Shown: positions 3,325-25,350 of the stretch, piece after piece | How positions within the stretch are numbered: position 1 is the first letter of the stretch | Layout: each line of letters opens with the position of its first letter | IMG/VR virus record: IMGVR_UViG_3300029988_000021 | Span: 1 to 25,350 of that record | DNA from: a virus | Length of the DNA stretch: 25,350 bases | Strand: one strand, 5' to 3' | Made by a program: the position numbers and the translations under genes | The notes under the pieces: model-generated | The model's database searches: none | The model's input: the letters and a program-made list of their open reading frames with translations, nothing else | Told to the model about the DNA's origin: nothing

Positions 3325-3723
3325 TCAACCTGAGAATAAACAAAGATTGATTGAACCGTTAACAGTAGTCAGCACCGGAGAACCATTACTCTTCAACGAT
3401 CCCGTACCACTCGTAATCACATTCAGGCTAGTATTCACCGGCTGCGTTATCGTCTGCGTTGCCATTGGGTCGGTCTTTACCAAATCGGTGGGGACCCCCA
3501 GAATCCACCCGCTGACGCTGCAGACGTAAGATGTGTTCGGAGTCGATGCCGTATTCAAGTACGGTTGCCCATAGTTGGCTGTTGTGCAGGCCACTGGGAT
3601 TGAAGTAGGAAGCCCAGCACCAGTGATGGCGGGCCACTTGATCTGCGTGGCCGGGTTAATCTGTTGTTGCGCAAAAGTCTGTGCAGCAAGCAGAAGCAGC
3701 AGTGGTCCGATGAGTCTCTTCAT
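3325..3723 (-). CDS. Signal-peptide tail-fibre-like protein, upstream half of split gene
   Basis: A strong GGAGAAAG site precedes the ATG. The N-terminus MKRLIGPLLLLLAAQTFAQQ is an unmistakable Sec signal peptide with a likely cut after FAQ. The following INPATQIKWPAITGAGLPTS and the YGQPYLNTAS and SVSGWILG stretches resemble the linker repeats of phage fibre N-termini. The frame ends at NLCLFSG, just where the overlapping +1 frame begins to look coding and continues for more than 170 codons. The protein as called is therefore probably a truncated product of an interrupted gene of about 290 codons. It lies between the SGNH tail spike and another signal-peptide fibre. Confidence 0.75.
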   Translation of the reverse strand: MKRLIGPLLLLLAAQTFAQQQINPATQIKWPAITGAGLPTSIPVACTTANYGQPYLNTASTPNTSYVCSVSGWILGVPTDLVKTDPMATQTITQPVNTSLNVITSGTGSLKSNGSPVLTTVNGSINLCLFSG

Positions 3724-21164: not shown

Positions 21165-21613
21165 CACCGTACCTCTTTCTCGCCACCCACAGTCCGAGAA
21201 TACTCCCAGCAACAAAGTTCGCAGTAGACGACTCGCTCCATCGTAATGTAATCAATTTTATCCTGCCATCTATGAGGGCATTTCCCCGGCTCTAATTTGG
21301 AAACCGCTTCCGGCACATCTGGCCCTGGGGCGAGTAACATGCGGCGCTGCCACTCGGTAATCATCCATATCCACCCGTTGTATCCGTTTAATGAATTGCT
21401 GAGTTTCACGCATTCTTTGGCTAAGGATCTTAATTGCTCCTTCGTCGGAACAATCGGGTTATCCAAGAGCCATCTCAGGGAGGCTTCGACGGCGATCCTT
21501 GCGATGTGTAGTTCTCCGGGCCCATGGCCAGGGATATAAGTCTTCATCTTAGATGAAACTGCTTGCCAAGCCGCTGTCAACATACCTTCAGGAATTACGA
21601 TCTTCTTCTCCAT
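21164..21613 (-). CDS. Hypothetical phage protein with C-terminal zinc site, 149 aa
   Basis: The ATG overlaps the upstream stop as TGATG, with GAGGTGAGG ahead; a GTG one codon earlier is also possible. It begins MEKKIVIPEGMLTAAWQAVS, a phrase common in small phage proteins. The middle is helical with LRSLAKECVKLSNSLNGYNG. The C-terminus holds C112, H114, C131 and C134 (KCPHRW; VYCELCCWEYSR), a likely zinc ribbon. The function is unknown. Confidence 0.8.
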   Translation of the reverse strand: MEKKIVIPEGMLTAAWQAVSSKMKTYIPGHGPGELHIARIAVEASLRWLLDNPIVPTKEQLRSLAKECVKLSNSLNGYNGWIWMITEWQRRMLLAPGPDVPEAVSKLEPGKCPHRWQDKIDYITMERVVYCELCCWEYSRTVGGEKEVR

Positions 21614-21873
21614 CACCTCACCTCTTCAATATCTACAACCTGCTTTTCGTTCCAACTGATCCTCAACTCGCTGTCCCAGTGCGCTGACTTGTGGCCAGCA
21701 TCGAGGACGCAGACAGCGTACTTGCCGACCTGCTTGCGGATCGCCCCGCAGGGTTTCAACTGCTTCAGGCACCGCTTGCAGGTGATCTCCCCAGGGTTTA
21801 TTCCAAGCTTGGCAATAGTTACTGGAACATTGCACATCGGCTGCCCATCCTCGCCAAGATAGTGAATTCTCAT
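21613..21873 (-). CDS. Small Cys-rich protein, 86 aa
   Basis: Its ATG overlaps the helix-turn-helix gene stop as ATGA. It begins MRIHYLGEDGQPMCNVPVTI and contains ITCKRCLKQLKPCG (C32, C35, C42) and CVLDAGHKSAHWD (C55, H61, H65). The CxLxAGH phrase is also seen in the protein at 23082-23420. Metal binding is likely; the role is unknown. Confidence 0.8.
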   Translation of the reverse strand: MRIHYLGEDGQPMCNVPVTIAKLGINPGEITCKRCLKQLKPCGAIRKQVGKYAVCVLDAGHKSAHWDSELRISWNEKQVVDIEEVR

Positions 21874-22085
21874 CGCTTCCCTTTCCCCGCCATCCGGTAC
21901 AACTGCTCCACCTTCTCAAGACCGAGAAACTTCAAGATCGTTCCGTCCGGCATCCGAACTTTCGCAACCACGTTCGCCAGAAAAGGGGCCGAGACACCGA
22001 TCTTTTCCGCGAACTCTTTCTGCTTGAGGGCGCCCTGCTTCGCCTCCAACATCTTCACCACGTCGTCCCGTGTGTAGTCGCGCAT
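21870..22085 (-). CDS. Helix-turn-helix regulator-like protein, 71 aa
   Basis: GAGGAG lies eight bases before the ATG, which overlaps the upstream stop as TGATG. Residues about 20-45 (LKQKEFAEKIGVSAPFLANV) are a Cro/CI/XRE-type helix-turn-helix, with the usual Gln, Ala and Gly-Val-Ser positions. The rest is LKFLGLEKVEQLYRMAGKGK. At 71 aa it is a minimal DNA-binding protein. It could act on the inverted repeats upstream of this operon, but that is a guess. Confidence 0.82.
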   Translation of the reverse strand: MRDYTRDDVVKMLEAKQGALKQKEFAEKIGVSAPFLANVVAKVRMPDGTILKFLGLEKVEQLYRMAGKGKR

Positions 22086-22448
22086 CAGGCGATCTCCTCG
22101 ACCATCTGGATTCTACGGCCAATCCAGGCCATCACTGGTACTGCCATACTATTTCCGAGTGCGCGGTATCGCGGCCCATCGGCGGTTTTCGCGCTGATCT
22201 TGGTGTACCCCGGCTCGGAGTCCTGAGACTGAGAAATCTTGGCAAGGTGTTCCTCCGACCAGAACGTCGATTGCTCCAAATTCATCACCTCTGATCTTCG
22301 TGAAATCTCCTACATTCGGAACATCTGGATAGTGATGCGCCAGCACCGCCGACGGAAATTTCTCGATCTCCGCCACCGCAGCGCACTCCCAAGAAGGCCA
22401 AGCGACTGACGCCGCCTCAATCCCCGAACATACACTCAGAAACCGCAT
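22085..22448 (-). pseudogene. Internally deleted DNA cytosine (C5) methyltransferase
   Basis: The first frame (ATG at 22448) encodes MRFLSVCSGIEAASVAW, motif I, and LVGGTPCQDFSVSGLRAG, motif IV with the catalytic Cys. It then reads out of frame until a stop at 22149. The second frame, ending at 22085, encodes PGYTKISAKTADG and PRYRALGNSMAVPVMAWIG, the C-terminal motif X region. Motif VI (ENV), the target-recognition part and most of the middle, normally about 200 residues, are absent. The join falls near CCGGGGTAC around 22205 and also shifts the frame. No active enzyme can be made. Its stop still couples to the regulator gene. It is a degraded gene or an assembly deletion. Confidence 0.82.
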
Positions 22449-22455
22449 ACCAGAG

Positions 22456-22471
22456 TTTCCCACACTGGAAA
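22456..22471. promoter_or_regulatory. Inverted repeat upstream of the methyltransferase remnant
   Basis: TTTCC-CACACT-GGAAA is a perfect 5-bp-arm inverted repeat; CCA and TGG just outside extend it imperfectly. It lies immediately before the ATG at 22448, with a TTGACT on the minus strand upstream. It may be an operator. Confidence 0.4.
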
Positions 22472-22758
22472 GGTGGAGTCAAGAGAAATCTTTACTTTTT
22501 TGGAAATAACTTAGAAGGGGGATTTGAGGAAATCGTGCGGGAGTGATCATCCGCCGAAGTCTGACGGGTCATGGGAGGGCCACCCCTTGATCGCGCGTTC
22601 CCGCCGCGTCGTCGTTCGCCTCGCGCGCAGTCGGGCCGGCAGGGAGGGCCGCACACCTCGAAGGGGAGGGGGCAACGGCCATCACAGGGAGGGGGCAACG
22701 CATCGGCAGGCGGAGAACTTGTGCAGCGGGGGCCGGGGGAATCTGAATCCGGCGCGCG
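22464..22758. other. GC-rich stretch without a convincing gene
   Basis: About 295 bases. The visible frames on both strands are Arg/Pro/Gly-rich and lack ribosome sites. It holds G-rich runs and a 14-bp repeat, GGGAGGGGGCAACG, at 22664-22677 and 22687-22700. Promoters for the downstream minus-strand genes may lie here but none is clear. Confidence 0.4.
22664..22700. repeat. Two 14-bp G-rich repeats
   Basis: GGGAGGGGGCAACG occurs twice with a 23-base period. Four G-runs of three or more make a G-quadruplex possible on the plus strand. The function is unknown. Confidence 0.45.
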
Positions 22759-22950
22759 CTATCTGGATCCGAGCTTCACCGTCTTGGCCTTCGCCGCGGG
22801 CTTGGTATCCTTCGTCGGCTGGGGCATGGAGACGGGATGGATCTGGGGCATAGAGACGGTGCGCTCGTCTCTCCCGAGGTAGACGGTAGCTGGGCGCGGG
22901 GCGGGGCGGGTGGGAGTTGATCGACCGAGATTGACGGGTTGGACTGGCAT
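22759..22950 (-). CDS. Pro-rich basic small protein, 63 aa
   Basis: GGAGGT lies eight bases before the ATG, a strong site. It begins MPVQPVNLGRSTPTRPAPRP, contains ATVYLGRDERTVSMP and ends KTKPAAKAK-like, KTVKLGSR. Two similar phrases, VNLGR and VYLGR, plus VKLGS near the end, look like a weak internal repeat. Disordered, basic and without cysteine. Function unknown. Confidence 0.65.
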   Translation of the reverse strand: MPVQPVNLGRSTPTRPAPRPATVYLGRDERTVSMPQIHPVSMPQPTKDTKPAAKAKTVKLGSR

Positions 22951-23081
22951 TGGGTGAGACCTCCGCCTGTAGGGTAACAGAGACGGAAGGCTCGCAGGGG
23001 GCTTAGAGGGGTAAAAAGGGTGGTGGGGTAATATGGTCGAATCGCCAGCGGCGCGTCCTGGGGCGTCCTACGGAGGCAGTT

Positions 23082-23420
23082 TCAGGCGATCCGCTCGCCG
23101 CGGGCGCACTTGCCCCTGTGACCGGCAGATAGGCGGCAGGCATAGCTCTCGCCCTCCTGCTCCAGCCATTCGACGTGGGGGCAAGGCTCGACCGGTGAGG
23201 CCGCATCGACCTGCATGGCAACCGGCGCGATATTACCGGCGCAGATGGCGCGCAAGGCCGCCAAATCCGGCTTGACCGGCGGCAGGACTTCACCCACCAG
23301 CGCGACCGGCGTTGACGCGACCGGCGCACGGTAGGCCGCGTGCTCAGAGAGCACCTCTAACGCGACCTCGCGGATGCGCGCATCGAGGCCAACACCAGAC
23401 TCGCGTATCAACTCGCGCAC
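23082..23420 (-). CDS. Main open part of a zinc-ribbon protein, 112 aa
   Basis: The GTG at 23420 gives MRELIRESGVGLDARIREVA, then an Ala/Pro-rich middle, then a Cys/His end: C80, H82, C95, H101, C105 (PCPHVEW; ACRLSAGHRGKC). There is no ribosome site at the GTG. The same frame is open further upstream, to 23522, and encodes an evident zinc ribbon, so this is probably the rear part of a longer, interrupted gene. The CxLxAGH phrase matches the 86-aa protein at 21613-21873. Confidence 0.6.
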   Translation of the reverse strand: MRELIRESGVGLDARIREVALEVLSEHAAYRAPVASTPVALVGEVLPPVKPDLAALRAICAGNIAPVAMQVDAASPVEPCPHVEWLEQEGESYACRLSAGHRGKCARGERIA

Positions 23421-23549
23421 AGATGCCGTCTTGTGCCAGCCTGTACGCTTACACCCAGAGCACAGGCGGGACGGGATCGAATCCTTAGCCAGCCAGACCC
23501 GGCCACATTCCGCATGCTCACATTACCACGCCCTAACAGTGGTCTCCAT
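23421..23549 (-). pseudogene. N-terminal zinc ribbon broken by an in-frame TAA
   Basis: From the ATG at 23549 (with GGGAG upstream) the frame reads METTVRAW, then TAA at 23523-23525, then CEHAECGRVWLAKDSI and PSRLCSGCKRTGWHKTAS, joining the 112-aa frame. The four cysteines and RxWxCE...CGRxWLA pattern are typical of small phage zinc ribbons, so the TAA falls inside a coding domain. It may be a nonsense mutation, a sequence error or, less likely, stop readthrough. Confidence 0.55.
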
Positions 23550-23597
23550 CGTAGACGCTCCCATGTTCCCAACGTAGACTAAACACCTGAACCGCCG

Positions 23598-23622
23598 TCT
23601 ACAGGGTAGATATTAGTCTACC
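23598..23622 (-). promoter_or_regulatory. Overlapping GTAGA/TCTAC inverted repeats, candidate operator
   Basis: TCTAC-AGG-GTAGA and GGTAGA-TATTAG-TCTACC share one arm. On the minus strand the spacer gives TAATAT, a possible -10 box for the early operon. Two further GTAGAC boxes lie at 23551-23556 and 23574-23579. This looks like an operator cluster controlling the leftward operon. Confidence 0.45.
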
Positions 23623-24467
23623 ATCGGTGATACAGAATAGACAAGCGCAACGCCTACCACCGCACACAGCAACGGCGAGCCGTAGCCCGCCGCGCTGCCA
23701 TTGGAAGGACTCAGCAGACATTCGCACCATGGTTGGCTGCTATCGTCGCTCGACCTCGGACCATGCTGCGCAGGCATGGCAACCCGACGTCGCCCAGTAA
23801 TGACAGCATACCACAACGTCAAAGACCACCCCGAAGAGTGGTCAGAGACGGTTGACAGCAGTGCTTCGAGACGTTGAGGCTTCGCGGTCCCAACTGAGAG
23901 CATACCACAGCCATCTACTAGCGCAAGTAAATAAATCTGCGTCAGACCTTGCGCCGCGCCCACCCAATGCCCCATGATCGAACTGTTGATATGCAGGGCT
24001 GGCGGAATCCCCTAAACTTCTACCTACCCTAAAAGCTGGCCATCGGAGAGATCCGACCGAGGCGAAAACGCCCCCAACAGGCCCAGGCAGCGACCAAACT
24101 GTAAACCCAGCCAGGCCGCACAAGGGGATTCCGAACCAATCCGAACATAAATGGCCTGTAATCAATAGGGTAGATGTGTGCCTGCATGGTGCTCGTGCTC
24201 AGAGGCAGGAGTGGGGGAGCGAAGTCGCGCCCTTTCCCCATCGCGGAATCAGCCCAAACGGAGCAACATGAGTGTGTCTCTCTATACACATATCGCATGG
24301 CGTAGTAACCATTTTAGGGGGTTACTTTCGTTGTAGATGGAGGTTACTAAAGTCGTAACACTAAAGTTGTATTGCGCAGATTGCATGGTAGATCTACTGT
24401 GATTGTGTTGCTGCTCTCCGGGTGTCAGTAGTAGAGGGAGTGGACAAACAGACTGGGTGACAACACA
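23623..24467. other. Repeat-rich divergent intergenic region, candidate origin or control region
   Basis: About 845 bases with no gene I can support. It holds AGCATACCACA twice (23805-23815, 23899-23909); GACCAC...GTGGTC (23824-23843); CGGAATCCCCT and its reverse complement (24003-24013, 24123-24133); AGTAACC...GGTTACT (24304-24326) with a further GGTTACT at 24342-24348; and the palindrome GTAGATCTAC (24388-24397). It separates the leftward early operon from the rightward genes. Such a place and content fit promoters, operators or an origin. Confidence 0.5.
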
Positions 24468-24623
24468 ATGATGAGCAATCGTACCGATACAATAATTATG
24501 ATCATCATAGCGATGACCGATGGAACCGCTAAAGTTTTTTCCAGCCAGATCAACGCATTCAAGGCCGATTTGCACCGCTTCGAGCGTATCGCGGTTGCAT
24601 TGGAGGGTCATTGTGGAAAATGA
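24468..24623 (+). CDS. Small hypothetical protein, 51 aa
   Basis: Two adjacent ATGs follow a GGGTGA. It encodes MMSNRTDTIIMIIIAMTDGT, then AKVFSSQINAFKADLHRFER and IAVALEGHCGK. The Ile/Met-rich start is a strand or hydrophobic core rather than a clear membrane helix. The stop overlaps the next gene, whose ribosome site lies inside this frame. Function unknown. It is more convincing than the alternative 86-codon frame that begins at 24520. Confidence 0.6.
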   Translation: MMSNRTDTIIMIIIAMTDGTAKVFSSQINAFKADLHRFERIAVALEGHCGK

Positions 24624-24780
24624 GGTTACATTGTGGATTGATTCGATCTTGCGGAAAGTTGCAGAACTTCCGGGACGCGATTCACCGATTGATAATCCAG
24701 ACTTGATGCTGGTGAGTGACAAGGAACTTCGCGCGATTCTTGAAGACGCCTGCGAAGAAATCAATCTCACTATCGAATAA
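24613..24780 (+). CDS. Small acidic protein, 55 aa
   Basis: GTG start five bases after GGAGGG. It encodes MENEVTLWIDSILRKVAELP (GTG as Met), then DNPDLMLVSDKELRAILEDA. It is helical and acidic. The longer frame from 24520 would add 31 residues that overlap the 51-aa gene in another frame and lack a ribosome site. Overlap of 11 bases with the upstream gene suggests coupling. Confidence 0.65.
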   Translation: MENEVTLWIDSILRKVAELPGRDSPIDNPDLMLVSDKELRAILEDACEEINLTIE

Positions 24781-24895
24781 CCTCCGCCGCGCCGATCCTA
24801 CGGTAAGCGGTAGCGTCCGACTGGTAATCAGGCCGCTCTACTCTGCATACATAAACCGCAATACAACAGGACGAACGCTGGGAGGCGTGAATAAA

Positions 24896-25303
24896 ATGGC
24901 ATACAACTTTGATCGGCTCATATCGGCAGGAATCAGCTTCGCGGACGCATCTGCACTCCGCCGCATCTCTATGACGCTTCACCGCTGGCATGAATTGGAA
25001 TGTGGCGACGGCAACAACTACGCCTCATGGTGCATCGTGCGCGGTGTGAAGACCGGGAAAGTCTTCGAGTATGACGACAACGGCAAGCCGTACCTAGAAC
25101 GCCACAGCAACACAGAGAACAAGCCCAGTTATACGCTGCTGGCCGACAAGGAACGCGGCGCACTGAAGAGGCTGGCCGCAATCATGGCGAAGCATCCGAA
25201 GATCACCGCATACGTCCAGGGCGATCCTCGCGGGTGCGCGCTTTACATCGGCGAAGGCTTGACCGATACCAACTACTCGAACGGCATCGCGGTCTATCAG
25301 TAG
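24896..25303 (+). CDS. Conserved phage-type protein, 135 aa
   Basis: I use the ATG that follows GGGAGG at ten bases; the frame is open further upstream, but that part is not protein-like. It begins MAYNFDRLISAGISFADASA, then LRRISMTLHRWHELECGDGN with NNYASWCIV and EYDDNGKPYLERHS, and ends VQGDPRGCALYIGEGL. The LHRWxELECG and QGDPRGCALYI phrases recur in hypothetical phage and plasmid proteins I know of; no function is established. It is the last gene before a strong hairpin. Confidence 0.8.
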   Translation: MAYNFDRLISAGISFADASALRRISMTLHRWHELECGDGNNYASWCIVRGVKTGKVFEYDDNGKPYLERHSNTENKPSYTLLADKERGALKRLAAIMAKHPKITAYVQGDPRGCALYIGEGLTDTNYSNGIAVYQ

Positions 25304-25309
25304 CCAACC

Positions 25310-25327
25310 GGGGGCAGCAATGCCCCC
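25310..25327 (+). terminator. Perfect 7-bp hairpin with GCAA loop
   Basis: GGGGGCA-GCAA-TGCCCCC, six bases after the 135-aa gene stop. The loop is a stable GNRA type. There is no T-run after it, so it may act as an RNA-stability or processing element or a weak terminator. AAGAAAGGGA at the window end looks like the ribosome site of a following gene. Confidence 0.55.
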
Positions 25328-25350
25328 ACCAACCAGCACGAAGAAAGGGA

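Follow-up and report, generated by a model that had tools for sequence, protein, structure and literature searches.

The divergent gap and its neighborhood

The stretch of DNA analyzed here (the window) is an IMG/VR virus record in its entirety, 25,350 bases long and classed as linear. Its leftward genes include those for the major head protein, the portal and the large terminase. No close named relative was found: among the matches listed, the terminase shares no more than 27.6% identity with those of annotated phages, and the two rightward genes searched had no matches in named phages. Searching with the terminase identified relatives at 37 loci, and five other contigs (L002–L006) have about 99.9% identity to the window over long stretches. 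When the DNA of 22500–24700 was compared with 26 records there were two matches, neither of which extended beyond 23269. Searches with a terminase profile, run without a positive control, gave 0 matches in 395 genomes from the phylum of a Thermoanaerobaculia MAG and 0 in 300 genomes from the order of a Paraburkholderia genome, and no prophage or host carrying a relative was found in those genomes.

A gap of 945 bp (23523–24467) separates the end of the leftward ORF at 23085–23522 from the first rightward ATG with codon support, at 24468, with the leftward packaging genes on one side. A prior reading of this DNA, made from the sequence only, had described a divergent region in which no gene is convincing, and both points hold. 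Leftward and rightward gene sets flank the gap, the ORFs inside it all have codon scores below 0, as non-coding frames do, and two of them, both on the minus strand (23842–24162 and 24282–24767), had no Pfam match at E ≤ 1. A hidden gene in the gap was ruled out by these codon scores and family searches. The gap, 945 bp of noncoding DNA between divergently read gene sets, has the layout of a heteroimmune control region. No DNA relatives of it were found by blastn in phages or plasmids, and none of its exact 22- or 18-base strings were found in viral contigs. The single sigma-70-like promoter found in 22000–25350 is not above chance (1.5 in shuffles). The gap also contains a 15-bp direct repeat, TGA(C/G)AGCATACCACA, at 23801–23815 and 23895–23909, 94 bp apart. 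Near its center is the 11-bp inverted repeat noted previously (24003–24013 and 24123–24133), the arms of which are 100% complementary.

The first leftward ORF (23085–23522, minus strand), here called protein X, has a codon score at noise level, and its frame has no ATG, GTG or TTG before the GTG at 23420. The N-terminal part of protein X is zinc-ribbon-like and its C-terminal part has 47% identity over a 74-column alignment with a protein of another phage contig, G027, in which a ribbon-helix-helix-like domain that falls slightly short of the Pfam cut-off replaces the zinc-ribbon-like part. On the plus strand to the right of the gap are a small gene of 50 aa (24468–24620) with the codon score of coding DNA, a second small gene of 55 aa (24613–24780) that scores as weakly coding, and a third gene of 135 aa (24896–25303) that scores as coding. 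The protein of the second is 87–93% identical in two other phage contigs, whose DNA upstream of the gene is unalignable, and that of the third is 100% identical in G027.

Box clusters at the two ends of the gap

The left cluster (23551–23622) comprises five GTAGAC/GTAGAT half-sites within 71 bp, identified by searching either strand (23551+, 23574+, 23597−, 23606+ and 23616−). Further sites are at 23913−, 24170+, 24333+, 24388+ and 24392−, the last two being held within a palindrome, GTAGATCTAC (24388–24397). The cluster also contains a 9-bp inverted repeat (GTAGACTAA at 23574–23582 and TTAGTCTAC at 23613–23621) and an imperfect palindrome, GTAGACTAATATCTAC (23606–23621, minus strand), with a TAATAT hexamer inside it on the minus strand. 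The latter is a possible overlap of a putative leftward promoter with an operator; the promoter scan gave no sigma-70-like site at these positions. The sequence-only reading had placed the GTAGAC/TCTAC boxes, the TAATAT overlap, and the GTAGAT sites near 24170, near 24333 and in the palindrome exactly where we find them. It had also positioned clusters at both ends of the gap, which agrees with our measurements: the left cluster is 30–100 bp from the open leftward frame and the right cluster 70–165 bp from the rightward ATG.

GTAGAY occurs 10 times in 23501–24500, against a mean of 0.89 in dinucleotide shuffles, and none of 5000 shuffles reached 10; GTAGA is enriched across the whole window (49 versus 27.1 expected). 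In a look-elsewhere control, some 6-mer was present four times per 75 bp in 8 of 300 shuffles, and the best 6-mer cluster of the whole window likewise has only four. After allowing for word choice, the boxes alone are weaker evidence and less striking. The left cluster was seen once, with no relative covering its DNA, and its inverted repeat had one match in viral contigs (L099, directly before a gene start), which by a rough estimate is no more than chance.

The AGTAACC/GGTTACT boxes reported at 24304–24348 are present, and proved to be parts of something longer. GGTTACT is found at 24304−, 24320+ and 24342+ when either strand is searched, and a GTAACC-N9-GGTTAC inverted repeat spans 24305–24325. 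These three copies in 23501–24500 compare with a shuffle mean of 0.11, and 0 of 5000 shuffles reached three; the corresponding look-elsewhere control found some 7-mer at least three times per 50 bp in 21 of 300 shuffles. The boxes form part of a 16-bp palindromic unit, TACNACTWWAGTNGTA, that was found in two other phages. All three operator-like units are on the plus strand: GGTTACTTTCGTTGTA at 24320–24335 (unit 1, four mismatches to TACNACTWWAGTNGTA), GGTTACTAAAGTCGTA at 24342–24357 (unit 2, three mismatches) and TAACACTAAAGTTGTA at 24356–24371 (unit 3, one mismatch), the last of which shares two bases with the end of unit 2. Units 2 and 3 are the only sites in the window with three or fewer mismatches, and both are in the right cluster. 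Shuffled half-site palindromes gave no window site with one or no mismatches in any of 400 cases. The fixed letters of TACNACTWWAGTNGTA are those of a perfect copy in G027, and the choice of its N and W positions followed inspection of G027, L085 and the window; because the consensus was relaxed in this way, the result of 0 in 400 serves to check consistency more than to test the unit independently. The right cluster is lifted above chance because the longer unit recurs in other phages.

One of these phages, G027, is a different contig of 13,691 bp with other terminase and portal-sized genes. It has a perfect palindrome, TACAACTTTAGTTGTA, at L079:12378, with GGTTACCAAAGTTGTA starting 25 bp earlier, and the palindrome stands just upstream of the gene that is 100% identical to the window gene at 24896–25303. 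The other, G029, is an AT-rich phage contig of 50 kb that is unrelated to the window (its array is covered by L085 and L179–L181). It has 21 sites with two or fewer mismatches, compared with 1.2 on average for shuffled palindromes (0 of 200 shuffles reach 21), and 11 of the 21 fall in one noncoding array, 33650–34420, upstream of the small terminase gene. The array occupies a noncoding region of ~700 bp directly upstream of small and large terminase family genes. In addition, TACCACTTTTGTAGTA at 3516 overlaps a −10-like TATAAT just before a gene for an XRE regulator that is above the HTH_3 cut-off, and a motif over the promoter of the phage's own XRE gene is what autoregulation would look like. 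The array is like the window in that the same 16-bp palindrome occurs in an extensive noncoding region next to terminase genes and in that the phage encodes an XRE regulator whose promoter carries the motif; it is unlike the window in belonging to an AT-rich, unrelated phage, in its dozen or so copies, and in having one-direction genes on both sides. G029 also has four identical copies of TACCACTATATATGTA dispersed within its first 10 kb (L179:940, 3393, 8013 and 9006), which are possibly repeated promoter/operator elements. A scan of viral contigs for the 16-bp unit pattern gave 16 stretches, of which the G027 and L085 matches were judged, by the sequence around them, to be promoter-like and many of the others coding or chance.

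The core of the unit was also found in bacterial genome contigs. Tandem CTAAAGTYGTA pairs are present in 46 stretches versus about three expected, an expectation that is a uniform-base estimate ignoring AT-richness, and many of the 46 are simple repeats or coding. In three Vreelandella genomes the pairs are upstream of a gene that we take, by eye from its translation, to be cstA, and the genes beside the core in L102, L111 and L122 are, by the same means, presumably AlbA_2-type. A Campylobacterota contig (L103:3020–3051) has 22-bp direct repeats containing ACTAAAGTCGTA beside genes whose translations we assume, by eye, to be Rep-, ParA- and ParB-like, and these repeats are probably plasmid iterons. 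In a Paraburkholderia sequence (L154:1501–1644), ACTAAAGTTGTA units make up two long inverted ends, GCGCTCACGCAACTAAAGTTGTA and its complement, separated by about 130 bp, an arrangement resembling a small element that is IS-derived or MITE-like.

The HTH gene and the exchanged block

The 71-aa, XRE-like HTH protein encoded at 21870–22085 (minus strand) is a plausible binder of the boxes. It scores 21–22 bits against Pfam HTH_3, just under the cut-off of 23, and 1.5 kb of DNA with other genes separates its gene from the gap. In G001, which is 98–99.9% identical to the window left of 21928, the exact match over the 21600 region extends only up to 21928, inside the HTH gene, and G002 matches the window exactly across 21600–22683. 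The G001 allele of the HTH protein is 49% identical (33/67), its last 18 residues being nearly the same; beyond it is a non-aligning segment and then 94% identity over 22515–23269, where the contig ends. What makes the HTH protein the best binder candidate is that phages otherwise nearly identical differ in its recognition part, an indirect form of support that comes from allele swapping.

The regulatory blocks of heteroimmune phages are bounded by exchange points. On the right side of the gap, 99.6% identity to G027 begins at about 24831, and L081 and L082 have the gene 24613–24780 (91% and 90% nucleotide identity in the aligned stretches), with the DNA upstream not in common. One exchanged block, about 21929–24830, appears to contain both the control region and the portion of the HTH gene that specifies DNA binding. 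The operators and the HTH allele may travel together; the sequence of G001 stops at 23269, short of the gap.

Two other features were observed in this part of the window. Small genes, unrelated or common, are followed after their stop codon in three phage contigs (window 24782–24806, L079:12286 and L081:6167) by a short element, CTCCGCCGCGC..., at which similarity changes; it is possibly an exchange point or a terminator. Between the HTH gene and the gap are fragments of a C5 cytosine DNA methyltransferase, N-terminal at 22149–22463 and, out of frame, C-terminal at 22085–22288, as if the middle had been deleted. The DNA of G002 is identical to the window at these fragments (22085–22463), and at this position G001 has a different segment with an ORF that we take, by eye, to be methyltransferase-like.

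Interpretation of the gap

The boxes could have clustered by chance in spacer DNA that recombination left behind and that is under no constraint, as four-copy 6-mers (8/300) and at least three-copy 7-mers (21/300) do arise in shuffles and the left cluster is without a relative for comparison. However, the 16-bp unit recurs in G027, upstream of a 100%-identical gene, and in G029, where it forms an array; we consider a chance origin very unlikely. The center of the gap might instead encode a structured noncoding RNA or mRNA leader (23990–24150), in which case some boxes would be RNA stems, not operators. The stretch inside the 11-bp inverted repeat folds better than shuffles (z of −3.8 on the plus strand and −3.7 on the minus strand), with the repeat as closing helix, and the minus strand of 23550–23709 has a z of −3.4. 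Control windows in coding DNA, however, fell below −3 in 2 of 80 cases, the fold is alike on both strands, and a tighter left fold has a z of only −1.4. A known RNA family was excluded, since Rfam gave none at gathering score and its two matches at E ≤ 5 are chance. The inverted repeat and its fold are weak evidence, and a role as RNA seems to us quite improbable. The sequence-only reading had suggested that the center may hold an origin, and if the gap were a replication origin the right-hand units would be initiator iterons. Consistent with this, the three units point in one direction, similar 16–22-bp repeats form the array in G029, and similar repeats are beside the gene judged by eye to be Rep-like in L103. 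Yet there are just three units, unequally spaced at 22 and 14 bp, and DnaA-like boxes number 8 versus 11.0 expected, no more than chance would give. GC skew has no switch beyond what gene direction explains, and no Rep domain was found in those adjacent ORFs that were examined. The gap does not show the regular direct iterons and the DnaA boxes of an iteron origin; the suggestion was not borne out, and we regard an origin as unlikely.

The tandem pairs upstream of the presumed cstA genes fit an explanation in which a host LuxR/NarL-family response regulator of the CrbR/ErdR acetate-utilization type recognizes the right-hand units as its boxes, so that the rightward genes would be switched by a two-component system of the host that senses carbon status. 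The box of CrbR/ErdR, a LuxR-family response regulator, is the ACTU motif, as described in portions of two papers (PMC5715377, PMC8402216). In those portions of PMC5715377 that were compared, the motif is like the units in being a 17-bp imperfect inverted repeat with an AC-N4-GT core, in its ACTAAAGT variants, and in its promoter location; the window differs in that units 1 and 2 have the outer half-site GGTTA, the genome is that of a phage, and no LuxR-type gene was found above cut-off. A six-site matrix (PMC5715377, section 16) ranks 24356 first and 24342 second of all window positions, but a 20-site matrix, built from 20 of the 23 rows of Table 4 of that paper (two duplicates and one 16-mer omitted), ranks 24356 first yet 24342 only tenth. 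The unit at 24320 scores poorly (p 0.004), and the match was looked for after the string ACTAAAGT had been seen and CrbR guessed. LuxR-type HTH domains above the GerE cut-off were found in 0 of 9 records, all of them from phages. Moreover, the core is not diagnostic because it occurs in many unrelated settings: iteron-, IS-, AlbA_2- and phage-array types. Control by such a host regulator is, in our view, doubtful. We give little credence to its extension, a rightward operon with tandem host CrbR/ErdR-type boxes whose expression is tied to acetate or carbon state and whose input is gained or lost by block swap.

We favor, with moderate confidence, the gap being a mosaic, immunity-type divergent cis-control region of a tailed phage, in which the boxes are candidate operators for XRE-type phage regulators. 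Such a region would probably be an ordinary, exchangeable on/off switch. The leftward genes (protein X, the HTH protein, then packaging and head genes) would run from its left end and the small rightward genes from its right end, with the two box clusters as putative operators at the promoter-proximal ends. The right cluster would present three tandem copies of TACNACTWWAGTNGTA, starting at 24320, 24342 and 24356, and the left cluster a different inverted-repeat set, based on GTAGACTAA. The clusters would be bound by one or two HTH regulators acting as dimers, most likely of XRE type and encoded by the phage, and the bound regulator would gate one or both of the opposite promoters. The promoters, the pairing of protein with cluster, and repression as opposed to activation, which is assumed here, are elements that we infer. 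Related phages would exchange, as one block, the control region together with the portion of the HTH gene that specifies DNA binding.

In TACNACTWWAGTNGTA there is a concrete operator-like unit that recurs in noncoding regions of three unrelated-looking phage contigs, and the near-identical phages with different HTH alleles are a natural pair, making regulator–operator specificity directly testable in an uncultured phage group. The kind of system is familiar; its testability comes from the recurrence of the unit and from the two naturally occurring HTH alleles, and the specific wiring is putative.

The immunity and operator regions of lambdoid-type temperate phages are the natural comparison for such a region. 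The window differs from temperate-phage immunity regions (lambdoid; S. aureus phi11, in the portion of PMC3991615 compared) in that its HTH gene is 1.5 kb away with intervening genes, its cluster sequences differ between left and right, and its lysogeny and operator binding are putative. In that same portion of the phi11 account and in the lambdoid regions, as in the window, operators, in the window candidate ones, are located in a noncoding gap between divergent genes, an HTH regulator is nearby, and genomes that are otherwise nearly identical exchange the regulatory block.
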